Source: Phycisphaerae bacterium
Lineage (GTDB): Bacteria > Planctomycetota > Phycisphaerae > Sedimentisphaerales > Anaerobacaceae
Direction of reading: 5' to 3'
NCBI GenBank assembly: GCA_012744475.1
Contig: JAAYBV010000009.1
Location: 1-33,216, forward strand
DNA: 33,216 bases
Within the stretch, counting starts at the first letter, position 1, and every line of letters starts with the position of its first letter. Below, piece after piece: positions 13,304 to 32,981 of the stretch. The notes under the pieces are model-generated. The model did no database searches and was not told where the DNA came from. It saw only the letters and a list, made by a program, of their open reading frames with translations. Both the position numbers and the translations under genes were made by a program.

Positions 13304-13376
13304 CTTCTCATTCAGACGTGAGCCGGGCCAAAGATCAGAGCGATCCATGGGACCGAACCAACTGAGGAATATCATT

Positions 13377-15992
13377 ATGAAAGAACATCTTCGTCGATCA
13401 CGCTCCCGCACAGGGAGCCTGACAAAGGCCGACATCATGACGATGCATCCGTTACATGTGCTCGTTTTGACGTGCGTCACTCTCTTCATCGGCGGGCAGG
13501 CGCGCGCAAAACCGGCGCGGAATCCCGTCATCTGGGCCGATGTGCCGGACGTCGCCGCCATTCGCGTCGGCGACACCTACTACATGGCCAGCACCACCAT
13601 GTACATGAGTCCCGGCTTGCCCATCATGAAGTCGAAAGACCTGGTCAACTGGGAGCTGATCGGCTATGCCTACGACACCCTGACCGACAACGAGGCCCTC
13701 CGACTGGAGGACGGCAGGAACGCCTACGGCCGGGGGTCCTGGGCCCCTTGCCTGCGATACCACAATGGGACCTTCTATGCATCGACCTTCTCCAGCACGA
13801 GCGGAAGAACGCACATCTACACCACAACAGACATAGAGAAAGGTCCGTGGAAGGAGACGGCGTTTGCGCCTTCGCTGCACGACCATTCTCTGTTCTTCGA
13901 TGACGACCGTCGGGTCTATATGCTCTACGGCGTGGGCAACCTCCGGCTCGTGGAGCTGGAGCCGGACTTGTCGGGAATCAAACCCGATGGCTTCAACGAG
14001 GTCGTGATCCCAAACGCCAGCGCCGTGGCCGGACCCAATATCAGCCTGCCCGCCGAGGGATCGCAGATGCGCAAGATCGATGGCAGGTATTACGTGATGA
14101 ACATCACCTGGCCGCGTGGCGGCATGCGCACGCAGATCCTTCATCGGGCGGACAGGATCACCGGCCCCTACGAAGGCAAGGTCGTCCTTCAGGACCAGGG
14201 GGTCGCCCAAGGCTGCCTGATCGACACGCCGGAGGGCCGATGGTACGCCCTTCTCTTCCAGGATAACGGCTCGGTCGGCCGCAGTCCCTGGCTTGTGCCC
14301 GTCCGATGGGAGGACGGCTGGCCGGTGCTGGGCATTGATGGAAAGGCGCCCACGACACTCAATATCGACGTGAACGAACAGGGACTTGGGAATATCGTGG
14401 CCTGTGACGAATTCGATCGCGAGTCCGGCGAACCGCTGCCCCTGGCATGGCAATGGAACCACAATCCCGATCCTCACCACTGGTCCGTCGGCGAACGGAG
14501 CGGTCACCTGCGGCTGGCCACGGGGCGGGTGGACGGCGACGTCCTCCAGGCCCGCAACATGCTGACCCAGCGGACCTTCGGCCCGGTCAGTTCCGCGACT
14601 GCGAAAATGGAAGTGGGCAACATGGAAGACGGCGACTGCGCCGGCCTGATTGCCCTACAGAAACGATACGGCTTCGTCGGCGTCAAGAGGCAGGGCGACA
14701 GCAAGTCGATCGTCATGGTCAGCGCTCAATCCAACGCGCCCGAGGAGATCGAGAGCGTCCCGCTTGCGCAGCAGAGCGTGTATCTGAGGATCGACTGCGA
14801 CTTCCGCCAGCGTACGGACAAGGCCGGTTTCTACTACAGCCTGGACGGGACAACCTGGACGAAGATCGGCACCACCCTTCAGATGGCCTACACCCTGCCG
14901 CACTTCATGGGCTACCGCTTCGGATTGTTCAATTTCGCGACCAGGACGCCGGGCGGGTTCGTGGATTTCGACTACTATCGTGTGAGCGACGAGCTTGTGT
15001 CGGCCTCGCCGGCGGCGGTCCGTGCAGACGTTCCCAAGCGGCCCTTTGCCACGCCACTCCGGTGGAAGTCCACAGGCGCACTGATCCGGCCGGTCTCGGA
15101 CGAGACGCACACCATCGTGTCCGTCAAAGATCCCACCGTCGTCCTCCACAACGACCTGTGGCACGTCTACGCGACCGTCTACTCGACGTCCGCCAGGACC
15201 TGGAACATGGTGTACCTGAACTTCAAGGACTGGTCCGATGCCCCCAACGCCAAGCTGCACTTCCTCGATCAGAATCCGAATCTGAGGGGATACAAATGTG
15301 CGCCACACTTGTTCTATTTCACACCCCATCAGAAGTGGTACCTGGTTTACCAGACACAGCCGCCGGCGTATTCCACCACCGATGACATTTCGCAGCCGCA
15401 GACGTGGACTGCGCCGCAGAGGTTCTTTGACAGACTGCCTGCGAGCGCCCCGAGGCTTCCGATCGACTACCACGTGATCTGCGACGACACGCATGCCTAC
15501 CTGTTCTTCACAGGCGATGACGGCAACTTCTATCGCAGCCGAACGAAGATCGAGGACTTCCCCAAGGGCATGAGCGATCCCGAGATTGCCATCCAGGACC
15601 ATCGAAACAACCTCTTCGAGGCGAGCATCACCTACAAGATCAAGGACGCCAACACCTATCTGACTCTGATTGAGGCCCTGAGCCCGGCAAGGTACTATCG
15701 CGCCTGGACCTCCGACCGCCTTGATGGCGAATGGACCCCCGTGCCGGGCGCCGATTCGTGGAATACGCCTTTCGCAGGGATCAACAACGTCACCTTCGAA
15801 GACGGCGTGCAGCCCTGGACGAGGGACATCAGTCATGGGGAGCTGATTCGCGACGGATATGATGAGAGAATGATCCTCGATCCCGAGAATCTTGCGTTTC
15901 TTTACCAGGGTCGCGATCCGGCGAGCGGCGGACGCTACGAGCTGTTGCCGTATCAGCTCGGCCTTTTGAAACTGGATCGTTCCGCGAGGTAG
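13377..15992 (+). CDS. Secreted GH43-GH62 fusion, arabinofuranosidase/xylosidase
   Basis: An 871-aa exported enzyme with two different five-bladed-propeller hydrolases. After a signal peptide (hydrophobic LHVLVLTCVTLFIGG, cut near ARA) comes a GH43 domain (about 40-335) with VIWADVPDVAAI, supplying the base Asp, and PAEGSQMRKIDGRYYVMN, supplying the acid Glu. A GH43-associated beta-sandwich (about 345-540, FDYYRVSDE at its end) follows. Residues 554-871 match GH62, which removes arabinofuranose from arabinoxylan: VSVKDPTVVLHNDLWHVYAT with the base Asp, PIDYHVICDD, and LFEASITYKI with the acid Glu. ATG 13377 has GAGG nine bases upstream; ATG 13437 and 13443 would give a shorter signal peptide and remain possible. 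The gene follows the FecR gene by 73 bp and precedes the xylanase gene by 23 bp, so the two enzymes are probably co-transcribed. Confidence 0.9.
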   Translation: MKEHLRRSRSRTGSLTKADIMTMHPLHVLVLTCVTLFIGGQARAKPARNPVIWADVPDVAAIRVGDTYYMASTTMYMSPGLPIMKSKDLVNWELIGYAYDTLTDNEALRLEDGRNAYGRGSWAPCLRYHNGTFYASTFSSTSGRTHIYTTTDIEKGPWKETAFAPSLHDHSLFFDDDRRVYMLYGVGNLRLVELEPDLSGIKPDGFNEVVIPNASAVAGPNISLPAEGSQMRKIDGRYYVMNITWPRGGMRTQILHRADRITGPYEGKVVLQDQGVAQGCLIDTPEGRWYALLFQDNGSVGRSPWLVPVRWEDGWPVLGIDGKAPTTLNIDVNEQGLGNIVACDEFDRESGEPLPLAWQWNHNPDPHHWSVGERSGHLRLATGRVDGDVLQARNMLTQRTFGPVSSATAKMEVGNMEDGDCAGLIALQKRYGFVGVKRQGDSKSIVMVSAQSNAPEEIESVPLAQQSVYLRIDCDFRQRTDKAGFYYSLDGTTWTKIGTTLQMAYTLPHFMGYRFGLFNFATRTPGGFVDFDYYRVSDELVSASPAAVRADVPKRPFATPLRWKSTGALIRPVSDETHTIVSVKDPTVVLHNDLWHVYATVYSTSARTWNMVYLNFKDWSDAPNAKLHFLDQNPNLRGYKCAPHLFYFTPHQKWYLVYQTQPPAYSTTDDISQPQTWTAPQRFFDRLPASAPRLPIDYHVICDDTHAYLFFTGDDGNFYRSRTKIEDFPKGMSDPEIAIQDHRNNLFEASITYKIKDANTYLTLIEALSPARYYRAWTSDRLDGEWTPVPGADSWNTPFAGINNVTFEDGVQPWTRDISHGELIRDGYDERMILDPENLAFLYQGRDPASGGRYELLPYQLGLLKLDRSAR

Positions 15993-16015
15993 AGCCTCAG
16001 TGAAAGGAGCATGCA

Positions 16016-17131
16016 GTGGACAGGAAGAAGAGTGTCACCGTTGCGAGCCTGGCGATCCTGTGGATCGGTGCGGCTCCGTGCCCGGGCGGGCAGGATGTGC
16101 CCGCGTTGAAGGACGTCTTCAAGGACCACTTCCTGATCGGCGGGGCCCCGAACCGCACCGTGGTGACAGGGCGGGACCCCAATGCCGCCGCGATCGTCGA
16201 GAAGCACTTCAACACGATCACCGCAGAGAACGACCAGAAGTGGCAGCTCATCCATCCCCGGCCCGACCGATACAACTGGGAGCCGGCCGACAGTTTCGTG
16301 GCCTTCGGCGAGAAGAACAGGATGTTTGTCATCGGCCATTGCCTCGTCTGGCATGCCCAGACTCCTCGATGGGTGTTTCAGGACGATTCGGGCGGCGAGA
16401 TCACGCGGGATGCGCTCCTGGCTCGCATGAAAGACCATATCATGACCGTCGTCGGTCGCTACAAGGGCCGGATCAAGGGCTGGGATGTGGTGAACGAAGC
16501 CCTCGATGAAGACGGCACGCTGCGAAACAGCCCGTGGCGGCGAATCATCGGTGAAGGCTCCGAGGACCAGAAGTACGACTTCATCGAATGCGCCTTCCGG
16601 TGGGCGCACGAAGCCGACCCCGATGCAGAACTGTACTACAATGACTACAATCTCGAGACGTCCAAGGCCAAGTGCGACGGCGCGGTCGCGATCGTGAAGC
16701 ATCTGAAGTCCAAGGGACTCCGCATTGACGGCGTCGGCATTCAACTGCACGGCGCCCTCACGCACCCCAGCGTCGAAGGCCTCGAATACGCCATCACATC
16801 CCTGGCCGCTGCCGGCGCCAAAGTCATGGTCACGGAATTGGACATTCGCACCCAGGCCCGCGGCTATCGCGGGGCCGATATCAGCCGGGTCAGCCGGGCC
16901 GGCACCGAGGATCCGGCCGCCGCAGCCGCCGAGACGCAGAAGAAGCTCGCCGACAAGTACGCCGAGATCTTCTCCGTGCTGCTCGCGCACAAGAAGGACG
17001 TCACTCGCGTGACCTTCTGGGGCGTCTATGACAAGACGTCCTGGATCGGAGGCTCGCCGCTGCTGTTCGATCGCACCTGCCAGCCCAAGGAGGCATTCTT
17101 CGCGGTGGTGAACGCCGCACGGCAGCAATGA
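16016..17131 (+). CDS. Exported GH10 endo-1,4-beta-xylanase
   Basis: A 371-aa single-domain xylanase that hydrolyses the beta-1,4-xylan backbone by a retaining mechanism. The N-terminal signal is weakly hydrophobic (VTVASLAILWIGAAPCPGG). The GH10 barrel covers about 28-368. The family residues are all visible: ENDQKW, GHCLVWHAQTP, acid/base E161 in WDVVNEAL, YYNDYNLE, GIQLHG, nucleophile E274 in VMVTELDIR, and a C-terminal TFWGVYDKTSWI. Length is normal for the family and no binding module is attached. The start is GTG, with AGGAG (16005-16009) six bases away. It lies directly after the GH43-GH62 gene, and the pair could degrade arabinoxylan to xylo-oligosaccharides and arabinose. Confidence 0.97.
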   Translation: MDRKKSVTVASLAILWIGAAPCPGGQDVPALKDVFKDHFLIGGAPNRTVVTGRDPNAAAIVEKHFNTITAENDQKWQLIHPRPDRYNWEPADSFVAFGEKNRMFVIGHCLVWHAQTPRWVFQDDSGGEITRDALLARMKDHIMTVVGRYKGRIKGWDVVNEALDEDGTLRNSPWRRIIGEGSEDQKYDFIECAFRWAHEADPDAELYYNDYNLETSKAKCDGAVAIVKHLKSKGLRIDGVGIQLHGALTHPSVEGLEYAITSLAAAGAKVMVTELDIRTQARGYRGADISRVSRAGTEDPAAAAAETQKKLADKYAEIFSVLLAHKKDVTRVTFWGVYDKTSWIGGSPLLFDRTCQPKEAFFAVVNAARQQ

Positions 17132-17187: not shown

Positions 17188-20100
17188 CTACCGAGGACGA
17201 GGCTGCAATCGCACGGTAGCGATGCCGAACGCCTTGACGGGTATGGCCACAGCGCCATCGGCCGACTCCAGTTCGGCCTGATTGGCCTCCACGAGGTTTG
17301 CCTGCCAGGCCCTTTCGACGTTCAGGCCCGTCACGCTGAGCGTCGCGGTCGTCGGCCTGCCATCGGTCTCGATGAGGCGGACGATGATGCCCTGACCGTC
17401 TTCCGCCTGCTTGATGGTGGTCAGCAGCACGTTCGAGGGCTCCACGCGGCAGAAGCTCGCCTGACGGTCCAGGGCGCCCTGCCTGGGACCATTGATGACC
17501 ACGGCGGCGAGCGGATTGTGGGCGGACCAGCCGAAGTCGCGATTCACGCGGTTGGCTTGAGGCCCATCATGGCTGGTCAGACTGTAGCGAAACAGAAGGT
17601 CGCTCTGCTGCACCGGCTGGAAGTTCGTGCGGAAGTTGCTGTCCAGAACGAACGCGTACATATGCCCGTTCGTGAGTTGCTCGGGCGTGACGAAGGGCTG
17701 CCCGAAATCGGGCGCCGTCAAGCCGTGGTGGGCCTGCGAGACGTAGCAGGGCCACAGGCCTCCGAACTCGATCAAGTGCGATTCCACAGGCGACAGCGTG
17801 ATTCCCACATCCGGGTTCGACACGCTCGCCCAGTGCTGCACGGCGTAATAGTTCGAGTTTGAGCCCGGAAACTGGTCCTGCAGCGGCTCGATCACCGAGT
17901 TGGAGCCCTCGAACCGAAACGCCGGCGCATCGACCTCGAACGGAAACGCGAAGTAGATCTCCAGCAGCGGCGTCGAGTCCTTCAGGACGCGGTTGAACAG
18001 GTCGATCCGCTTGATCCTGTCGTACAGGACCACCTCCTGGATGATCTGCGGACAGCCCGGGCCGGAGCCGCGAGCGACCAGGCTCGCACAGACCGGTCCT
18101 TTCTGCCCTGGGCGAATCTCGGCGCACGTCGGGCCTTCACGCCGGCTCGTCTGCACCCACTTGGCCACGAACTGGTTCAGTTTGTCCGGCGCCTCGCGGT
18201 CCACCAGCTCGCGCGACAAGTCTTTGTCGTAGAGGCTCGCGATCGCGCCGGTTTGCGGGTCGAGCGTGACCCGGAAGAAACGGTTCTCAACGGTGTTCTG
18301 TGTGACACTCAGCCCGCTGTTCCGTTCGGCCGCACTCTGTCGCGGGACGATGCGATAGGTCTTATAGCCCATGGAGGGGACGCGTTCCGCGACAAACACC
18401 AGGTCGAACAGCTCATGTCCCTCGAACTGCCCGCGCGCCCAGCGGTGCGGGGCATAGGGAGCAGCCGCTAGCGGGCCGTCCAGCTCGACCACCTGGCAAG
18501 GCACCGCTTGCCCGGTGGCGGTATCGATCAGATCGAAGTGGCCTTCCACGGCGCATTTCGTCACACGCACTACATCGGTCCGGTCGAAGGCCAGTGGATT
18601 GAAAACGACGATGTGCCGGCCGGATTGGTCGATCCGGATGTTCCGCGCGATGCTCTCCAGACCTGCCGACAACACGGATTGGGCCAGGCCCGCGGCGCGG
18701 TAGGCGTAGTGGCTCTTCTCGTTCCAGGCCCAGTCCTGGAGCTCGCCCGCCGGATAGTCCTTGCCCCAGGTGTGTTCGTCGTAGAGGAGCACATCGTCAT
18801 AGGCGCGGGCGATTTTCTCCGACGGATACGGCTGATTGCAGACCAGCGAAGCAATCGTCGCGGCCTTCTCCGCCGAGAGCAGCTTGTCGTGCGTCAGGCG
18901 GTTGATGGTCGTCTCTTTGGCCGTCGAGAGAGCCCCCACCACATAGTCTGTGTGCGGCAGCTCGCCACGAAAAGTGCGGACGTCGGCGCACTGCTTGTCG
19001 AGGGCTTTGAAGAACATGGCGTTCGTGGCGACAACGAGCCTCGGATACGCCCACTTCTCGTTCCACTGCCTGACGACCTCGCTGATCCTCATATCGGGCG
19101 GATGGTTGTCGACGCCGTTGTGGATGTACCGCATCACGTCGAACGGCGAACCCCGCTCGTCCATCTCATCGAGCATGCCGGGCAGGGCTTCCATAACCTC
19201 ATCATATGTATCCGGCCCGATCACGCGGCTGAAGAAACCATAGCTGCCCTGGTAGTAGACCAGCACCGTCCGGCCGTCCGGTCCCTGCCAGCGGAAGGCG
19301 TCGGGCCGGCCGTGACGCAGGACGGCCGCCTCGTCCCAGAACGTGTGGATGTCGTTGCGGCCCCACTCGAAATACGTGGGCAGCCCGGCGAAGAAGTACT
19401 TGATGTCGGCGCCTGAGAGAACGGACGTCAGGCCCCAGCTCAGACCGGGCAGATCGGTGATCGACCCGACGGAGATCTCGCCCCCGTATTGCCGTACGAA
19501 CCGGAAGGACGGATACATCAGCCGGATCTGCTGCTCGTGCCCGCACAGGCTGTCGATCTCGTTGCCGAACAGGGCGCCGATCTCGATCCGCCCCTGCCGG
19601 ACGTAGGCTGCGAATCGGTCGATTGTCTCCTGGGGCCTGTTCTCGATGAAATGCGCCAGCGACCACGTCCCCTCCAGCGTGTAGCGGTACTTCGCCTCGT
19701 CCGGCCAGTCGCCGGTCTCGTCGCAGAATCGCAGCACGTCGTCGTAGAAGCCCGCGTAGAGGTTCAGGACGTTCTCAATCGTGTCGGTGTAGCCCAGGTC
19801 ATGGTGCGTGATCGGCACGAAGTAGATGGTCCAATGCTTGCGAGGCTGCCACGGGGCTCGGTGCGTGGCCAGGACCTTGCCGCCCGCCTGGAGAACGAAC
19901 TCTGCCGACGCCGCCTCCCGAACATCCGGCGCCTGGAATCGCAGCGTGGACTCGCCTTGCGGGATCGGCCCGAGACTGGCCGACCGGCGGGCCGAGCCGA
20001 TTCGGACTTCGAGGTCGCATTGGACGGTATCGCCGGCGTTCTGGACGGCGACTTCGACCGTTTGAACCAATCCGTCCTGGTCGCGAGAGAACAGAACTGT

Positions 20101-20340
20101 CGGGCGCACCGATACGATTCGAATCGACGCATCGCCCGCCGCTGCGTTCTGGGCCTTCGCACAGAGGCAAACGCCGGCAAGCAGAACGACGCAGAACAAG
20201 GCACGCATCGACATGCGATCCAGGCGTCGCTGCTTGTAGTGACGCCGTGAGGCGTTCCTCGAAGTGTATGCCCCTTCGGCAAGCTCAGGGCAGGCTCTTG
20301 CGGGCACACTGCGAGCGGCGGCTGCATGAGTGAGGTTCAT
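17188..20340 (-). CDS. Exported GH38-like glycoside hydrolase
   Basis: A 1050-aa protein from the ATG at 20340, which has AAGGAGAG ahead of it. Residues 1-42 contain a dispersed repeat (PELAEG, about 18-23). The true secretion signal follows (RALFCVVLLAGVCLCAKAQ, about 46-64), so the native start may be ATG 20214 or 20208, although neither has a ribosome binding site. After a beta-sandwich (65-165), the GH38-like catalytic barrel shows PITHHDLGYTD (metal ligands H179/D181) and SITDLPGLSWG, with D296 as probable nucleophile in place of the usual IDPFG-type motif. Later come YDEHTWGKDY and the beta-rich C-terminal domains. GH38 enzymes are zinc-dependent alpha-mannosidases; the substrate of this divergent form is unknown. 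It converges on the xylanase gene and is divergent from the SGNH esterase gene. Confidence 0.85.
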   Translation of the reverse strand: MNLTHAAAARSVPARACPELAEGAYTSRNASRRHYKQRRLDRMSMRALFCVVLLAGVCLCAKAQNAAAGDASIRIVSVRPTVLFSRDQDGLVQTVEVAVQNAGDTVQCDLEVRIGSARRSASLGPIPQGESTLRFQAPDVREAASAEFVLQAGGKVLATHRAPWQPRKHWTIYFVPITHHDLGYTDTIENVLNLYAGFYDDVLRFCDETGDWPDEAKYRYTLEGTWSLAHFIENRPQETIDRFAAYVRQGRIEIGALFGNEIDSLCGHEQQIRLMYPSFRFVRQYGGEISVGSITDLPGLSWGLTSVLSGADIKYFFAGLPTYFEWGRNDIHTFWDEAAVLRHGRPDAFRWQGPDGRTVLVYYQGSYGFFSRVIGPDTYDEVMEALPGMLDEMDERGSPFDVMRYIHNGVDNHPPDMRISEVVRQWNEKWAYPRLVVATNAMFFKALDKQCADVRTFRGELPHTDYVVGALSTAKETTINRLTHDKLLSAEKAATIASLVCNQPYPSEKIARAYDDVLLYDEHTWGKDYPAGELQDWAWNEKSHYAYRAAGLAQSVLSAGLESIARNIRIDQSGRHIVVFNPLAFDRTDVVRVTKCAVEGHFDLIDTATGQAVPCQVVELDGPLAAAPYAPHRWARGQFEGHELFDLVFVAERVPSMGYKTYRIVPRQSAAERNSGLSVTQNTVENRFFRVTLDPQTGAIASLYDKDLSRELVDREAPDKLNQFVAKWVQTSRREGPTCAEIRPGQKGPVCASLVARGSGPGCPQIIQEVVLYDRIKRIDLFNRVLKDSTPLLEIYFAFPFEVDAPAFRFEGSNSVIEPLQDQFPGSNSNYYAVQHWASVSNPDVGITLSPVESHLIEFGGLWPCYVSQAHHGLTAPDFGQPFVTPEQLTNGHMYAFVLDSNFRTNFQPVQQSDLLFRYSLTSHDGPQANRVNRDFGWSAHNPLAAVVINGPRQGALDRQASFCRVEPSNVLLTTIKQAEDGQGIIVRLIETDGRPTTATLSVTGLNVERAWQANLVEANQAELESADGAVAIPVKAFGIATVRLQPRPR
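20271..20297. repeat. PELAEG-type dispersed repeat inside the GH38 leader
   Basis: CCCCTTCGGCAAGCTCAGGGCAGGCTC (plus strand) is a sequence I recognise as a widespread bacterial repeat, read in proteins as PELAEG or SLPKG. Here it lies in frame in the first 25 codons of the GH38-like gene. Hairpin-forming sequence adjoins it (GGCGTC at 20223-20228 with GACGCC at 20241-20246; ACGCC with GGCGT at 20242-20255). Recognition rests on memory of the family, not a search. Confidence 0.6.
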
Positions 20341-20403
20341 CGTCTCTCCTTTCGTTCGCGCTTCAGACTGGACAGGACTGCCGTATAGCTGCACGGTCTG
20401 TTC

Positions 20404-25573: not shown

Positions 25574-26968
25574 CTACTCGCCTACGCCCAGCCGCTTCTG
25601 CAACTCCTCCAGCGATACCCCCTTGGTTTCCGGCAGGTACTTCAGCACCAGGACGAACTGCACCAGCATCATGACAGCGAAGAAGGCAAACGCGGCAGCG
25701 CCCGAGTCACTCGCCACGATGGGGAAGAGCCAGCTCACACCGATGCAGAGCAGCCAGATCAAGAAACAGGCGGCCGCCGACCCTGAGGCGCGAATCGCAT
25801 TGGGCAGCAGTTCGTTGATGCACACCCAAACGACGGCGCCCTGCGAATACGCGTGCGAGCCTACAATTCCCATCATCGCGACGATGACAATCCAACCCTG
25901 CGCATGTGTGTGGAATACCCACGCGGCCAATCCATGGGAAAAGATGAAGGTCACGGACCCGGCCAGCAGGAGCGCCTTGCGTCCCACCCGGTCAATCAGC
26001 ACCATCGCAAACACCGTCATGACGAGATTCGTCAGGCCGATGATCACCGACTGCATCAAGGCCCCTGCCTTGTCGGCGCCGGCCATGCGGAAGATATCGG
26101 CCGTGTAATAAATCACCGCGTTGATGCCGTCCAACTGGTTGAACGCCGCGATCATGCCGGCCAGCAACAGCGGCTTGAGGTACTTACGATGGAGAAGGCT
26201 CTGATGGCCGCCAATCCTCTCGGACGTGAGCGACTGCTCGATCTCATCGACCTCCCGTTGCGGGTCTTCGTGGCCGAACCTCGTCAGGACCTCCTCGGCC
26301 GCCGCACGGTCCCCTTTCTTCATCAGCCAGCGGGGGCTTTCCGGAATCAGGATCGAGGCCACGAGAAAGACCGCCGCCGGGGCCGCCTCCACGCCGAACA
26401 TCCAACGCCATGCCGCCGGATGCTCCGGCCCCAGTAGATAGGCCACGAGGTAGTTCGAGAAATACGCCGCCAGAATGCCCACGACGATGTTCAACTGGCT
26501 GACCGCCACCAGCAGGCCGCGGCGACGCGCCGGGGCAATCTCCGTGATGTACACCGGCGAAACGACAGACGCCCCACCGACCGCGATGCCGCCGATCCAA
26601 CGGAATAACAGCAGCGCATGCCAGTTCCAGGCATACGCACAGCCGACCGCCGACACCAGATAGAACAAGGCCAGCACCGTCAGCACCGGCCGCCGTCCCC
26701 ACCAGTCCGCCGGCCGGCCGACCAGCACAGCGCCAAATAAGGTCCCGATCAGGGCGCTGGAGACAGTGAAGCCCAGCAGGTTGTCGTTGAGCGAGTACAC
26801 GTCTCGCAGAGCTTCCGTCGTGCCCGAGATCACCGCCGTATCGAACCCGAACAGGAACGACCCCAACGCCGCGATGATGGAACTGGTCAACAGCATCGCA
26901 CCGCCATGCGTTTCCTTCATACCACCATCGCCGGTCATATCCATATCGCGTGGCCTCACACTTGTCAT
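25574..26968 (-). CDS. MFS transporter, sugar porter family
   Basis: A 464-aa, 12-helix inner-membrane sugar transporter of the XylE/GLUT type. Family signatures: LFGFDTAVISGT in helix 1, GRPADWWGRRPVL in loop 2-3, VYITEIAPARRRG after helix 4, PESPRWL before the central loop, QLDGINAVIYYT in helix 7, DRVGRKALLL in loop 8-9, and a C-terminal YLPETKGVSLEE. It likely imports a monosaccharide by proton symport. It starts 6 bases after the stop of the 1562-aa glycosidase gene, so the two are co-transcribed: the enzyme releases a sugar outside the cytoplasm and this protein could import it. The start is unsure: ATG 26968 has little ribosome-binding sequence, and downstream in-frame ATGs (MDMTGDGG, MKETHGG) are possible. 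Confidence 0.92.
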   Translation of the reverse strand: MTSVRPRDMDMTGDGGMKETHGGAMLLTSSIIAALGSFLFGFDTAVISGTTEALRDVYSLNDNLLGFTVSSALIGTLFGAVLVGRPADWWGRRPVLTVLALFYLVSAVGCAYAWNWHALLLFRWIGGIAVGGASVVSPVYITEIAPARRRGLLVAVSQLNIVVGILAAYFSNYLVAYLLGPEHPAAWRWMFGVEAAPAAVFLVASILIPESPRWLMKKGDRAAAEEVLTRFGHEDPQREVDEIEQSLTSERIGGHQSLLHRKYLKPLLLAGMIAAFNQLDGINAVIYYTADIFRMAGADKAGALMQSVIIGLTNLVMTVFAMVLIDRVGRKALLLAGSVTFIFSHGLAAWVFHTHAQGWIVIVAMMGIVGSHAYSQGAVVWVCINELLPNAIRASGSAAACFLIWLLCIGVSWLFPIVASDSGAAAFAFFAVMMLVQFVLVLKYLPETKGVSLEELQKRLGVGE

Positions 26969-26974
26969 AGTAGC

Positions 26975-29900
26975 CTAATTGAATTCCGTCCGCACGGTCA
27001 CCAACCCCCACGCGGGCACGTCGATGGGACCGTTCACACGTTCACCTGCCCGCTCACTCGTATCGCTCAGGTAGACAGCCGCCGGACGGACGCTGCCCCA
27101 CTTCAGATTGACGGACCGCGCTCTGTCTGTCACGCCGAACAGACGCACGATCAAGGCGCGGCCGTCATCACTGGGCTTCAGAGCCGTCACGAGACATTCG
27201 CTCGGCTCGACGGTCAGCAATGACTTCGCGGGCGGCACGCCCTGCGCGCGTACGGCCAGAAGCGGCTGGCTGAAACCGGTGGCAAAGCGTGACGCCTCGG
27301 CCGGATCGCGACGGCGGTGAGGCCGCAGGACGAATCGAAATACGGTCGGACCCTCCTGGTAGGCGCGGTAGTTGGTGCCCCAGTGATTGTTCATGGCCCA
27401 GGAATAGAGCTTCTGCGTCGGCTCCACATGCCGTCGCCAGACGTCCGGATCGGTCTGCGAATTGAGCAGCGTGGCGGTGATGCCTCCCACCTGCACGAGC
27501 GGCGCATCGAGCGTCACCCACGTGACGCCGCGCTCGGCGTTGGAGACATCGGCCCAGCGCCCCACGGTGAACCAGTTCTTGCACGCGCTGGGCATCTGGT
27601 CGATCTCCGGACGCATCACGCCCAGTGGAATATCCAGGAGCACCTCGCCATCCGGCACCGCAAAAGGAAAGGCGAAATTCACGCTCTCTTTGCCCTCTTT
27701 CGCGTGGTAGCTCTTCGCTTGCAGCCGCTCTTTGTCTATCGTGTTGATGAGCTCGACATGATCGCACCCGGCCACCACGCGCAGCTCTCGCACGAGCCTC
27801 TTACAGCCGGGCGCCGCCGACTCGATGACCAGCGAAGCGACCAGCGGGCCTTTTTCGCCGACGCGAATTGTCACCGGCCCGTTGCGCTTAAGGTCCTTCG
27901 GATCGTCACCGATCAGGTACAGGTAGTCGTTCAGGGCTTCGCCTTCGCTGATGTCGGCGAAGTTGCCGCTCAGTCCCTTGGCCGTCAATTCGACGATTCC
28001 GCCGGTCCTCTCGTCCACCTGCAGACGAATGACGCCGCTGTCCAGAGTCGCGCCTGCCGCAATCGCCCGAGCTTCGCCATAGGGCGTACCTGAAGTCACC
28101 GCGTAACGCCGGGCAGCGAACGGCGGCACATCGCGCGCCAGGAAGACCAGCTCACCCGACGCCAGTCGCTGCGACGGAACCGGCCGGCCCGCATCGTCGA
28201 TGACGCGGTCGCCGCCGGCACGTAGGGGCGAATGATCATTCGCCCCTGCTTTCGAGACAGTCACCAACTCCGTGCGCGGCCAGGAAAGCGTGTTGAACAC
28301 GTCTATTGTTCCCGCCGATGCGACGGCGTCGACGCGTTCCGTTCCAAGAGATGCGGCCAATAGCTCGCGCGACTGCCGGTCCGCCGACTCGGCGTAACTG
28401 CGCTTGATGTCCCATTGTTCGAGCGTCTCTTTCCGCTGCGGCTCGCTCACGCTGCACCAGGCGCCCCAGGTGTGCTCGGAGTACAGTAGGACTTTGTTCC
28501 ACGCCTCCTCAAAAGCCGCTGCCGAATACGCGGACGGACGCAACATCGCAAAAAGCGTCTGGGCCTGCGCGAGCCGGTCGGAGCTGGCGCGGTTCAGCGC
28601 GGTCTCCAGAGCGGATGAGCCGGCGCCGTCCTCCCAGTAAGGCGTCCAGTCGCCTCGTACAGCGGGCAGCCTGTCGCCGTAGCGTTGCTCGAACGCACGG
28701 AACGCCTCGCTCGTCCCGGAGATAACGAAGCGGGGCCAAGCGTACCTGGCGTTCCAGTCGCGGACGAACTCACAGATGGCGGGGTCCGGCACGGCGTTGT
28801 CGCCGTGGCCCGCCCAGCGCACATAAGCGACGTCGAACGGATAGCCGCGTCGCTCCAGCCCATCGCAGAAGTCCTCGACCAGTTGCGGCGACATCTTCCC
28901 GTAGCGGTGCGACATCGCGTAGCCCCAGAACGGAATCCAGACAAGCACCTTCGACTGCGCATCGGGGCCCACCCAGTAGAATGGTTTGTTCTCCCACTCG
29001 CGCAGGATCGTGCCAATGCGGTCGAAGTAGTTCGGCGCCACGGAGAAATAGCGGATTCCCGCGTGGGCCATGGCGGTGACCGTGCCCCAAGTGTACCCCG
29101 GGACATCGGAGATCATCGCCGCATCGATCGGCACGCCGGTCTGCCTGGCCAGCTCCGTGGCATACTTGAACAGGCGGACCAGCTCCTCCGGCCGGCACAG
29201 CCCGGTCAGCTCGTTGAGGTACATGCCGTTGAGCACCACCTGTCTGGTCTTGACCGCATCGAGGAACTCCGCGCGCTGCCGGTCGTCGAGACGGCGCAGA
29301 TACAGGTCCGCCGCCCAGAGCACCTCGACGTTCCACACGAAACGAGACCCTTCGGGATAGCCGGCCGTTCGCTTGGCGGCGGCGATCCCATCGAGGAGAT
29401 TCTGTACCTGTCTGGCCTCGATGGCGGTCTGAATCTCGGTATAGCCGATGTCGGTGTGCGAATGCGGCGTGATATACACCGTCAGCTTCCTCACCGGCTT
29501 CAACGTCACCTCTCGCGTCGCGACGTGGCAATAATTCACGATAACCGTCACGAAGTCCTTCGTCTCCGCTTCGACCGCATCAACCATCAGTTCCACTTCC
29601 TGCGCTCCCCGAACCAGACGCAGGGACTTTGCAGGTCCGTGCATAAGGCGCACCACGGCGTCGGTGTCCTCGCCGAAATGTCGCACGGTCACCAGGAGTG
29701 GCTGGAACATTCGTCCGTTCTGCTCCTGCAACGCGCGCACCGGCTTGACTGACTCCAGAAACGTTCGCGACTGCACCTGACACGGTTCGGCGCCAGGCGG
29801 CACCGTCAGCCCGAGGGAATCGTAGAGCAGCCAACTGCCGCTCAGCGTGGTGACGCGGACTTCGTTGTCGCCTCTCTTGAGCAGGTCCGCCGGGAAGGCG

Positions 29901-31663
29901 ACCGCGAATTTGTGCTCCCGGCCCTTTTCCGGACGGCCGAACACGGAGGCATCTCCCGCACCATTGGGCAGGGACTGCTCGAACGCCTGCCCGTTCACTT
30001 CCACGAGCAACCTGGGCGGGCCGGCGCTGTGGGTGTCGATCAGATCGAACAGGAGCCGGCATTCACCGCTCGCCGGCGGCGTCCTCAAACCGAAGAGCAC
30101 GATGAACGTGTGTGGCCGAGCGCCCGCCCAGCCATCCGCCGGGCCGGGCTGCACATACGGCCAGTCTTTCTTCGGCTCGGAAGCCCCGACCACGAAGAAC
30201 GCATCGTCGTCGAACTGGGCGTAGCCGTCCGGGGCCAGGGTAAACTCCGCGTTGTCATTGTCGGCCTTGCCGATCTCCCAGAGCGCGACGGAAGCATCGA
30301 CTGAGATACGCTGCTGCTGTTCGGCCCAGGCGAGCAGCTCGACGATGGCCATGCCGAGAACGCCCGCCGAGCCGCGAAACTGACCCGACCCTCGCGGTTG
30401 ATTGTCACGCGACCACCACTCATGAAAGCCACCGTGCCGAAGGACTCTCGCGGTCATGGGCGCAAGCTCGCGGTACGCCTCTGCAACGAGCCCATGACGG
30501 ATCAGTTGGCGGATCATCCGCCCGCCGAACCAGCACCAGTCGCCGCCGTTCTGGTAGGAGTACGGCCCCATGGCGGGATTCTTGAAGCTGCCTTCGGGGT
30601 AGACCGGGTAAAGCGTCAGCCCAATCGAGCCGGCGCCGGCGCGCCGGACGTTGTCCATCATCTGCCGAAGCGCGCCTGCGATTTCGTCGCGCGTCAGGAG
30701 TCCCGCTTCGATGGCTACGGCCGTACCGCCGTGGTAGTAGACCGCCGCCTCGTCAAAGCCGCTCGGAAAGGGCGACTCTTCCAGATAGATGTGAGGGCGG
30801 AACTTGCGCTGGTCCGCGTCCCATAGGTGTTTGCGCACGTTTGCTCGCAGGTCATCTCGCACCTTGCGCCATCGCGCCGATGAGGTTCCTGTGTCACCGG
30901 CCAGCGAGAGGTAATCGTCGATGGCCACAAGAAACATGGCGTTGTCGTAGATGTCGAGTGCGCGATGAGAGCTCTCATCCAGCTCGACGCCCCACTCATG
31001 CTCGGGCTGCACATCGCCCCAGTCGGCGGTCGTAGCGCCCCACACCAGACCATGCGCAGCATCGAATCGGTGGGCGAGCACGTACTCCAGCGCCCGGGCC
31101 AGGCGATTGCGGACCGACACGCCGTCCACTTTCTCGTCGAGGATGGAAGAATCTCCTGTGCCGGCAACGTACTTCCGCACGGCCTGGACCAGCGAGGATT
31201 CCTGATCGGTCTCCACGGTATTCTTGTGGGCGAGCAGCTCCGGCACCAGGGCGGACCGGCGGTATTTGTAGGCGACGTTGCCCTGGGCCTTGGGGATGTA
31301 CCCATCTACAATGTCGCCCTGCGGCCCCTGGAACCGGAAGAAGGTTAACAGGGCCTCGCGGACCGGCGCCGGATCGTTCACCTGGAGCGACAGCTCGATG
31401 AAGGTGTTCAGATCGCGAATCCACACCTCGCCGTAACCGCTGCCGGCGGTGAACCCGGTCTTCAGCAGGCTCCGGGCCTTGTCCAGCACCCGCGGCAGGT
31501 TCGGGTCAGCCAGGATCTGCCGGGCCACAGCGGCGGATTGAAGGGATGGAGTGCCGGAGTGTTGGATCGCTGGATCAGTCGCCCGCGCTGGCCCCGGTAT
31601 TCCAACACTCGTGCATGCCAGTATTCCAACCAGGACAAGGGAATGGTGAAGTGCACTGGACAT
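26975..31663 (-). CDS. Exported three-part glycosidase: (alpha/alpha)6 domain, PL4-like sandwich, GH38-like domain
   Basis: A 1562-aa protein with a signal peptide (1-28), followed by repeat-derived residues HSGTPSLQS (35-43). Residues about 50-455 form a helical toroid of the debranching-enzyme/GH63/GH78 kind (GEVWIRDLNTFIELSLQ, WGVELDESSHRALDIYDNAM, DWCWFGGRMIRQL). A beta-sandwich (about 466-620) resembles the last domain of PL4 rhamnogalacturonan lyases (WPYVQPGPADGWAGA, LLYDSLGL). A GH38-like part follows: TPHSHTDIGYTE (H734, H736, D738), MISDVPGYTWG with D853 as probable nucleophile, YSEHTWGAW, then beta domains to the end. GAGGG eight bases before the ATG supports the start. The order suggests two catalytic activities on one branched glycan. 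Domain calls for the first two parts rest on fold-like motifs only. Confidence 0.8.
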   Translation of the reverse strand: MSSALHHSLVLVGILACTSVGIPGPARATDPAIQHSGTPSLQSAAVARQILADPNLPRVLDKARSLLKTGFTAGSGYGEVWIRDLNTFIELSLQVNDPAPVREALLTFFRFQGPQGDIVDGYIPKAQGNVAYKYRRSALVPELLAHKNTVETDQESSLVQAVRKYVAGTGDSSILDEKVDGVSVRNRLARALEYVLAHRFDAAHGLVWGATTADWGDVQPEHEWGVELDESSHRALDIYDNAMFLVAIDDYLSLAGDTGTSSARWRKVRDDLRANVRKHLWDADQRKFRPHIYLEESPFPSGFDEAAVYYHGGTAVAIEAGLLTRDEIAGALRQMMDNVRRAGAGSIGLTLYPVYPEGSFKNPAMGPYSYQNGGDWCWFGGRMIRQLIRHGLVAEAYRELAPMTARVLRHGGFHEWWSRDNQPRGSGQFRGSAGVLGMAIVELLAWAEQQQRISVDASVALWEIGKADNDNAEFTLAPDGYAQFDDDAFFVVGASEPKKDWPYVQPGPADGWAGARPHTFIVLFGLRTPPASGECRLLFDLIDTHSAGPPRLLVEVNGQAFEQSLPNGAGDASVFGRPEKGREHKFAVAFPADLLKRGDNEVRVTTLSGSWLLYDSLGLTVPPGAEPCQVQSRTFLESVKPVRALQEQNGRMFQPLLVTVRHFGEDTDAVVRLMHGPAKSLRLVRGAQEVELMVDAVEAETKDFVTVIVNYCHVATREVTLKPVRKLTVYITPHSHTDIGYTEIQTAIEARQVQNLLDGIAAAKRTAGYPEGSRFVWNVEVLWAADLYLRRLDDRQRAEFLDAVKTRQVVLNGMYLNELTGLCRPEELVRLFKYATELARQTGVPIDAAMISDVPGYTWGTVTAMAHAGIRYFSVAPNYFDRIGTILREWENKPFYWVGPDAQSKVLVWIPFWGYAMSHRYGKMSPQLVEDFCDGLERRGYPFDVAYVRWAGHGDNAVPDPAICEFVRDWNARYAWPRFVISGTSEAFRAFEQRYGDRLPAVRGDWTPYWEDGAGSSALETALNRASSDRLAQAQTLFAMLRPSAYSAAAFEEAWNKVLLYSEHTWGAWCSVSEPQRKETLEQWDIKRSYAESADRQSRELLAASLGTERVDAVASAGTIDVFNTLSWPRTELVTVSKAGANDHSPLRAGGDRVIDDAGRPVPSQRLASGELVFLARDVPPFAARRYAVTSGTPYGEARAIAAGATLDSGVIRLQVDERTGGIVELTAKGLSGNFADISEGEALNDYLYLIGDDPKDLKRNGPVTIRVGEKGPLVASLVIESAAPGCKRLVRELRVVAGCDHVELINTIDKERLQAKSYHAKEGKESVNFAFPFAVPDGEVLLDIPLGVMRPEIDQMPSACKNWFTVGRWADVSNAERGVTWVTLDAPLVQVGGITATLLNSQTDPDVWRRHVEPTQKLYSWAMNNHWGTNYRAYQEGPTVFRFVLRPHRRRDPAEASRFATGFSQPLLAVRAQGVPPAKSLLTVEPSECLVTALKPSDDGRALIVRLFGVTDRARSVNLKWGSVRPAAVYLSDTSERAGERVNGPIDVPAWGLVTVRTEFN
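31557..31610. repeat. SNTPxL-type repeat with inverted arms in the glycosidase leader
   Basis: GAGTGTTGGA (31557-31566) and TCCAACACTC (31601-31610) are perfect 10-bp inverted arms. A further TATTCCAAC copy lies at 31622-31630. The pattern, read as QHSNTPxLQ-like peptide, is one I recognise as a dispersed short repeat in bacterial genomes. It spans codons of the region between the secretion signal and the catalytic part of the 1562-aa protein. Confidence 0.5.
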
Positions 31664-31766: not shown

Positions 31767-32981
31767 ATGACACCGAGAGAAAGAGTCCTGGCCGCACTGA
31801 ATCACGTCGAACCCGATCGCGTTCCGATCGATCTGTCCGGACATCGCTCCTCGGGCATTGCCGCGATGGCGTACCCCCGGCTGCGCAGATGCCTCGGCCT
31901 CGAACCGAGACCCGTGCGCGTCTACGACGTGGTCCAGCAACTCGCCGTTGTCGACGATGACGTACTCGACCGCTTCGGCGTCGATTGCATCGAAATGGGA
32001 CGAGGCTTCGCCCTCACCGACGACGACTGGAAGCTCTGGAGGCTTCCCGACGGCACGGATTGCCTCATTCCCGCCTGGACCCGCATGGAACGTCGGTCCG
32101 ATCGCTGGGTCATTCTCTCCGATTCCGGGAGAGTTATCGCGCACATGCCCGACGGCACATTGTACTTCGAACAGACGTACTTTCCGTTCGCCGAATCGGA
32201 CGACGATGGGATGCTCGCCGACGCCTTCGGCGAATGCATGTGGACCGCCGTGGCGTCCCCGCCCGGTCCCGTCGATTTGCAGACCCTCCGCGAGGGAGCC
32301 CGGCGCCTGCGTCAGAGCACCGACCGGGCCATCATCGGCCTGTTCGGCGGCAATCTCTTCGAGACAGGCCAGTTCTTCTACCGGGCCGACAACTTCTTCA
32401 TGCTGCTGGCCTCCGACCCTCCGAGGGCGCACCGGTTTCTGGACCGCCTGGTGGAGATCCATCTGGCTAATCTGGAGAAGTTCCTCGGCGCGGTCGGCCC
32501 GTCGATCGACATCATCCTCTTCGGCGACGATCTCGGCATGCAGACGGGTCCGATGCTCAGTCCTCGGATGTACTGCGAGTTCTTCAAACCCCGCCACCAG
32601 ATTCTCTGGAATCGCGCCAAGGAGCTGGCCGACGTGAAGGTCATGCTCCACTGCTGTGGCGGAGTTCGCGAGCTGCTCCCTCATCTTATCGAAGCGGGTC
32701 TGGACGCCATCAATCCCGTCCAGATCACTTGCTCCGGCATGAACGCGGCGGAATTGAAGAAGGAATTCGGCCGGGACCTGACCTTCTGGGGCGGCGGTTG
32801 CGACACGCGGGAGATACTCACCGCTGCGCGCCCGAAAGAGGTGGCCCAGCACGTCAGGAATCAGGTTCGCATCCTCTCGCCGGGCGGCGGTTTCGTCTTC
32901 CAGCAGGTCCACAACATTCTGGCCAACGTTCCGGCCGAGAACATCGTCGCCATGTTCGACGCGGTAGACGAAAGCCGGTGA
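31767..32981 (+). CDS. UroD-family protein, methyltransferase-like
   Basis: A 404-aa cytoplasmic protein of the uroporphyrinogen decarboxylase superfamily: MTPRERVLAALNHVEPDRVP at the start, GGNLFETGQFF, FGDDLGMQTGPMLSP, and a C-terminal FVFQQVHNILANVPAENI. It carries H295-C296-C297 (MLHCCGG) and C345 (GGGCDT). This reproduces the His-x-Cys...Cys zinc set of corrinoid-linked methyltransferases such as MtaA/MtbA, and points away from haem synthesis. In Planctomycetota such proteins often lie beside sugar-degradation genes, with unknown substrates. The start at 31767 begins at the conserved N-terminal motif, though GGTGAG is close and weak as a ribosome binding site. It is divergent from the 1562-aa glycosidase gene. 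Confidence 0.85.
   Translation: MTPRERVLAALNHVEPDRVPIDLSGHRSSGIAAMAYPRLRRCLGLEPRPVRVYDVVQQLAVVDDDVLDRFGVDCIEMGRGFALTDDDWKLWRLPDGTDCLIPAWTRMERRSDRWVILSDSGRVIAHMPDGTLYFEQTYFPFAESDDDGMLADAFGECMWTAVASPPGPVDLQTLREGARRLRQSTDRAIIGLFGGNLFETGQFFYRADNFFMLLASDPPRAHRFLDRLVEIHLANLEKFLGAVGPSIDIILFGDDLGMQTGPMLSPRMYCEFFKPRHQILWNRAKELADVKVMLHCCGGVRELLPHLIEAGLDAINPVQITCSGMNAAELKKEFGRDLTFWGGGCDTREILTAARPKEVAQHVRNQVRILSPGGGFVFQQVHNILANVPAENIVAMFDAVDESR

Follow-up and report, generated by a model that had tools for sequence, protein, structure and literature searches.

Here we report a protein of 1562 amino acids that unites an alpha-mannosidase of glycoside hydrolase family 38 (GH38) with a predicted six-hairpin hydrolase of an uncharacterised family. 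The gene is an intact open reading frame on the minus strand (26975..31663) of a 33,216-nucleotide stretch of DNA from a Phycisphaerae bacterium (Planctomycetota; locus G000), hereafter called the window, and is followed on the same strand by a gene for a sugar porter. On balance we think it probable that the product is secreted and acts on a mannose-containing glycan as a bifunctional exo-glycosidase, and that the porter imports the sugar so released. The most valuable part of this result is the pointer that it provides from an orphan family of toroid proteins, for which a pattern search of one genome collection returned 461 stretches (456 confirmed by tblastn), to alpha-mannoside breakdown, a tie by which the function of the family becomes directly testable.

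Architecture of the fusion protein

Behind a plausible signal peptide, predicted by eye (residues ~1-29, 31577..31663, minus strand as for all parts of the gene; a hydrophobic core, then ARA before T), which suggests that the protein is probably secreted, lies a helical-toroid glycosidase module (residues ~40-452, 30308..31546) whose match to Pfam PF17167, the GH94 superfamily, covers residues 59-350 (E 1.7e-7). A linker of only a few residues leads to a beta-sandwich resembling domain III of PL4 rhamnogalacturonan lyases (residues 461-618, 29810..30283; PF14683, E 9e-14), presumably accessory, whose counterpart in GH92 enzymes, by alignment, is their N-terminal module. The remainder is GH38, with an N-terminal catalytic domain (residues 728-999, 28667..29482; PF01074, 48.0 bits, E 1.5e-12), a middle domain (residues 1009-1077, 28433..28639; PF09261), a C-terminal domain (residues 1208-1384, 27512..28042; PF07748, GH38C, 27.7 bits, E 4e-6) and a C-terminal beta-sandwich (residues 1492-1544, 27032..27190; PF17677, GH38C2, 24.8 bits, E 2.3e-5). 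All of these matches, including that of the PL4 domain III “CBM-like” model, exceed their curated cut-offs save that of the GH38 middle domain, which reaches 22.2 bits against a cut-off of 31.1 and holds a histidine (H1064) that is invariant among relatives.

The assignment of the C-terminal part to GH38 is borne out by structure prediction. The model of residues 456-1562 (pLDDT 85) retrieved GH38 enzymes as the first 40 of 50 PDB rows in Foldseek and as the first 36 rows in VIA-align, the best being Ams1 (Z 29.5, root-mean-square deviation (rmsd) 2.9, 729 residues aligned, 15% identity). The four residues H736, D738, D853 and H1064, which would correspond to the zinc ligands and the nucleophile of Golgi mannosidase II, are invariant in all 25 aligned GH38 rows. 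Compared with the GH38 enzymes of Enterococcus (5kbp/3lvt), Streptococcus pyogenes (2wyh) and Schizosaccharomyces pombe (Ams1, 6lz1), the fusion protein is alike in its N- and C-terminal domains, its fold and these four presumed metal-ligand and nucleophile residues, but it shares only 15-18% identity with them and adds an N-terminal PF14683 sandwich and a toroid.

With PL4 rhamnogalacturonan lyases the protein has only the domain-III-type sandwich in common, PF14683 being the sole PL4 model matched and no PL4 catalytic domain being found with Pfam. The sandwich was modelled only within the model of residues 456-1562, and a search with its profile at E 10 gave no solved relative. It also occurs on GH92 enzymes, where four examples are 26-38% identical to the sandwich of the window. 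Because the lyase catalytic domain is missing and the sandwich is common to GH38 and GH92 enzymes, we reject a role in pectin or rhamnogalacturonan breakdown and see no support for the hint at pectic or fucosylated substrates in the original prediction, whose toroid fold, PL4-like sandwich and GH38 enzyme were otherwise recovered by domain search and modelling. In PMC10167667 a “CBM-like” domain of a GH92 enzyme is described as having a homologue in Clostridium GH38 enzymes; that domain and the sandwich of the window may or may not be one and the same module.

A copy of a dispersed palindromic element, TAGGGGCGAATNATNATTCGCCCCTA (28223..28248, plus strand), is inserted in frame within the GH38 module, where it adds seven residues in two of the 25 aligned rows (the window and G004), at a loop that is modelled with low confidence. 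Allowing at most two mismatches, there are 128 copies in the host genome, 56 in G004, 20 in G001 and none in G503 or G036, and a reversed control gave none. A copy inside a gene is unusual, since in 20 other stretches only 6 of the 25 copies looked at fall in coding-like frames, whereas 416 of 600 randomly chosen positions do. The palindrome recalls Rickettsia palindromic elements.

Occurrence of the fusion and of its halves

The fusion is no product of a frameshift or of faulty assembly, because it is also a single open frame in three further assemblies: G004 (LVBB01000143, 89% identical), G001 (JAAYBA010000208, 87% identical, cut by the contig end 13 residues short of the end of the query) and G503 (JAGPGT010000050). 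It is thus present in four genomes of two genera and probably in a fifth, G501, where the toroid and the start of the sandwich stand at one contig end and the rest of the sandwich with GH38 at the end of another contig. No description of this architecture was found in the literature searched, which comprised titles, the beginnings of abstracts and some passages, in keeping with the original prediction, which knew of no description.

At E 1e-20, 28 of the 99 relatives searched with the whole fusion protein matched. The near-full-length matches from outside the fusion clade span query residues ~440 to 1560 at 36-80% identity, in frames mostly of 1120-1230 amino acids, so that sandwich plus GH38 without a toroid is a standing architecture in the host's family; close orthologues of this part in G036, G500, G504 and G506 are of this kind. 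The three parts had been taken to be normally separate proteins. Since sandwich and GH38 are already one protein in these relatives, a three-way fusion is ruled out and the joining event is one of two units, toroid and sandwich-GH38.

The toroid is present in 14 of 89 genomes of the host's family (E 1e-10) and in one of 392 genomes drawn evenly from the phylum (E 1e-15), that one being the host itself. Several of the relatives with a toroid-free sandwich-GH38 frame carry a separate toroid gene, 49-64% identical. In the toroid tree the toroids of the four fusions group together in a single clade (support 100/99); the rows nearest to it are from Verrucomicrobia, with weak support (81/86 and 85/34), and the stand-alone planctomycete toroids lie apart. 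The distribution may reflect one origin followed by losses or two gains, both being compatible with a 14-row tree. GH92 genes were found neither in the host nor in four relatives searched, and a search of the host for GH38N at E 1e-5 gave two genes, both within the window.

The toroid family

The 80 best toroid stretches from the genome collection, whose loci we surveyed, come from Bacteroidota, Verrucomicrobiota, Planctomycetota, Hydrogenedentota and a few other bacteria. In 70 of them the toroid is a stand-alone gene, mostly of 420-490 amino acids, the three longest frames having 541-612. The other ten comprise four sandwich-GH38 fusions (one of them cut), two sandwich-GH92-toroid genes, single fusions with GH127, GH5-PQQ and WbsX, and a GH38-toroid gene in a broken frame. 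None of three toroids tested received a name from NCBIfam, and of four matches in a plasmid search both annotated ones read “hypothetical protein”. By sequence, no solved relative of the whole fusion protein was found at E 1, and the toroid profile gave only weak GH94 matches. The toroid is a member of an uncharacterised family that has neither a named model nor a solved structure among those searched.

The AF2 model of the toroid (pLDDT 93.2, pTM 0.93) has the six-hairpin fold of GH63 and GH100, aligning in VIA-align with GH100 invertase 5goq (Z 36.5, rmsd 2.7, 344 residues, 17% identity), GH94 2cqs (Z 34.7, rmsd 3.4, 381 residues), GH116 7dkw (Z 32.7, rmsd 2.9, 335 residues) and GH63 4wvc (Z 32.6, rmsd 3.2, 346 residues). 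An alignment of 55 relatives contains 71 invariant columns, which include D217 and E415. In the HMM alignment D217 falls in the stretch that reads ADWND in chitobiose phosphorylase, where the aspartate is presumably the general acid, and the motif of E415 is presumably the site of the catalytic base in GH63-type enzymes. As candidates placed by conservation and alignment, the two residues would suit an inverting hydrolase.

PF17167 scores 30.7 bits for the window toroid (cut-off 27) and matches 42 of the 55 members at E 0.01, which places the module in the GH94 superfamily; PF22422, the GH63/MGH1-like model, scores 24.1 bits (cut-off 27), below threshold, and matches 30 of the 55. GH94 phosphorylases have an N-terminal beta-sandwich domain joined to the toroid, a domain for which the fusion protein has no Pfam match and for which most of the family would have no room, since 70 of the 80 toroid genes stand alone at mostly 420-490 amino acids. 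The toroid resembles GH63, GH100 and GH94 enzymes in fold (VIA-align Z ~29-36), and GH94 in its DWxD motif, but shares only 13-19% identity with them, lacks the GH94 N-terminal domain and stays below the GH63-type cut-off.

Two loci (L131 and L151) hold two toroid genes each, the second copies being 51% identical to the window toroid and forming a clade of their own. The GH38-toroid gene of a Verrucomicrobiales contig (L097:6954-11227) is spread over two overlapping frames and is either a broken gene or an assembly slip.

Gene neighbourhoods and the case for mannose

The stop codon of the fusion gene (26975-26977) lies six bases before the ATG of the porter (26966-26968), as originally predicted. 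The porter (25574..26968, minus strand, 464 amino acids) belongs to the MFS sugar porter family, scoring 333.8 bits with TIGR00879 against a subfamily cut-off of 237.8. The order of a URO-D-like gene, the fusion gene and a sugar porter, which it had been proposed to seek in other planctomycetes, recurs in G004 and G503 as in the window; in G001 the URO-D-like gene and the fusion are seen and the contig stops inside the fusion gene. A closely spaced porter is accordingly found in three of four fusion loci, the fourth being G001. The original prediction of a self-contained unit that degrades outside and imports inside finds support in the plausible signal peptide and the close porter, but it goes too far as to self-containment, as neither an endo-acting enzyme nor an outer-membrane transporter was recognised in the block common to the fusion loci.

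Of the 80 toroid loci, 48 of which extend 5 kb to both sides, 26 have an alpha-mannosidase no farther than 5 kb away, on whichever strand, or as part of the toroid gene (21 GH92 and five GH38, with six of the 26 being fusions), 16 have a mannose-6-phosphate isomerase and nine a sugar porter; toroid, alpha-mannosidase and sugar porter occur together in twelve loci within the available flanks. The isomerase was missed by Pfam, but a profile built from ten of them finds, at 3e-17, a mannose-6-phosphate isomerase of solved structure. Across 20 genomes that bear the toroid and together hold 194 GH92 genes (mean 9.7), GH92 lies within 5 kb of the toroid in 10 of 20 loci against 0.5 expected, a comparison that treats loci as independent although the genomes are related, two of the ten loci being fusions. 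Bacteroidota often have the toroid gene adjoining sandwich-bearing GH92 alpha-mannosidases, with mannose-6-phosphate isomerase and sugar porter. Such multi-domain GH92 enzymes, whose catalytic family differs from the GH38 of the fusion, in some cases bear the same PF14683 sandwich and adjoin or join a toroid. Three layouts of the joined pair were observed: toroid before sandwich-GH38 (here), after sandwich-GH92 (two Sphingobacterium) and after GH38 (the broken frame in Verrucomicrobiales). The recurrence of the same kind of enzyme pair as neighbouring genes in another phylum suggests mannose-containing glycans as the food. Some of the isomerases (L144:5776-7500 and relatives) are proteins of ~600 amino acids with a long N-terminal extension, and the one tested had no Pfam match.

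Several observations weigh against this reading. No GH38, GH92 or isomerase was found in the available flanks, short for many, of 48 of the 80 toroid loci; only 20 of the 70 stand-alone toroids, many on short contigs, come within 5 kb of an alpha-mannosidase; and in planctomycete relatives ten genes next to stand-alone toroids included none, being HEAT, VWA, PQQ, sulfatase, SASA and other proteins, one of which matched the PMT glycosyltransferase family. Sulfatase was the commonest family (five) among 43 same-strand neighbours, which were drawn only from loci without mannosidase or isomerase (three of 46 chosen were left out). On these observations the job of the toroid may be broader or different, and its fusions to GH127, GH5-PQQ and a WbsX domain, together with adjoining GH106 and GH29 genes, suggest that it may serve several glycans. 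The window, moreover, also carries xylan genes.

Proposed function and alternatives

In the reading that we favour, a toroid hydrolase encoded elsewhere by a stand-alone gene was fused to the front of an existing sandwich-GH38 protein, an alpha-mannosidase. Of the two halves, GH38 would be a retaining, zinc-dependent exo-alpha-mannosidase and the toroid an inverting, metal-independent hydrolase, with D217 as acid and E415 as base. The toroid would most likely act as an alpha-mannosidase itself, or else take off a group that stands in the way of GH38 on the same glycan, and the sandwich would bind or position the substrate. The freed monosaccharide, mostly mannose, would enter through the porter, which is probably co-transcribed. 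We tentatively extend this to a more specific proposal, to be taken as a possibility, that the toroid family of Bacteroidota and the Planctomycetes-Verrucomicrobia-Chlamydiae (PVC) group consists of inverting, metal-independent exo-alpha-mannosidases repeatedly paired with metal-dependent GH38 and GH92 enzymes as neighbours and as fusions, the toroid here replacing a second GH38 whose gene, in several relatives without the toroid, stands after that for sandwich-GH38 and before that for the porter. If so, bacteria would have another catalytic type for the removal of alpha-mannose, and loci for mannose glycans could be recognised by the toroid; should the activity of the toroid differ, the sandwich common to GH38 and GH92 enzymes would still hint at a shared substrate.

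The idea of a replacement comes from gene order. Among toroid-free loci, G036 and G500 have a URO-D-like gene, sandwich-GH38, a second GH38 and a porter; in G504 the second GH38 runs off the contig; G507, whose sandwich-GH38 gene is cut at its 5′ end and whose genome yielded no toroid, also has it; and G506 has sandwich-GH38 and a porter without it. None of the three fusion loci with sequence beyond the gene (G000, G004 and G503) has a second GH38 before the porter. As Fisher's test on these related loci gives p = 0.14, we keep the replacement only as a lead.

Another terminal sugar, such as glucose, galactose, a uronic acid or a decorated residue capping or branching a heteroglycan, might instead be cut by the toroid before GH38 or GH92 removes alpha-mannose, which would make the protein a debranching enzyme for two sugars. 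We consider this possible, if rather unlikely: the families with the folds nearest to that of the toroid have sucrose, glucosides and mannosylglycerate as substrates, and GH127, GH5, GH106 and GH29 are fused to it or beside it in other bacteria, but in the 80-locus survey no enzymes were identified near it more often than GH92 and mannose-6-phosphate isomerase. Xanthan side chains, too, are served by GH38 and GH92 enzymes, according to PMC10881899. It is very improbable that the toroid serves only as a scaffold, having lost its catalytic activity or being a phosphorylase-like remnant; the GH94 phosphorylase superfamily is its best Pfam match and it is missing from the close orthologues of the GH38 part, yet its 71 invariant columns include both candidate catalytic acids and an enzyme-sized gene stands alone in 70 of 80 loci.

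The xylan genes of the window raise the prospect that the fusion handles a side branch of glucuronoarabinoxylan and that the porter imports xylose in the manner of XylE. Genes for GH10, GH43-GH62 and esterases are found no more than ~20 kb from the fusion gene, and XylE is the second-best model of the porter; its score of 325.7 bits, however, misses the equivalog cut-off of 608. The order common to G004 and the window stops after the porter and an RGL11-like gene, and no xylan gene was found in the flanks of G004, G036, G500 and G503, which reach ~1-6 kb past the porter and are too short to exclude farther ones. We know of no role of alpha-mannosidases on xylan, and regard this explanation as very improbable.

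Neighbouring genes in the window

GH43-GH62 and GH10 genes with esterases nearby (13347-17131, plus strand) probably form an arabinoxylan cluster. Near the GH10 and GH43-GH62 genes lies a second, distant GH38 gene (17188-20394, minus strand), 29% identical to the GH38 of the fusion.

Divergent from the fusion gene is a gene of the URO-D superfamily (31767..32981, plus strand), whose product is nearer to MtaA/CmuA-type methyltransferases (best E 5e-14) than to HemE, for which there was no match, and falls under the cut-offs of all these models. A URO-D-like gene adjoins the GH38 gene in 14 of 20 loci examined; beside the sandwich-GH38 genes of G504 and G506 there is none. In nine of those 14 it is followed by a transporter of one BLAST family, called a sodium/solute symporter on the basis of one member. 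An HCC...C motif is kept in 14 of 14 aligned URO-D-like sequences, and it is conceivable that the product transfers methyl groups on methylated sugars.

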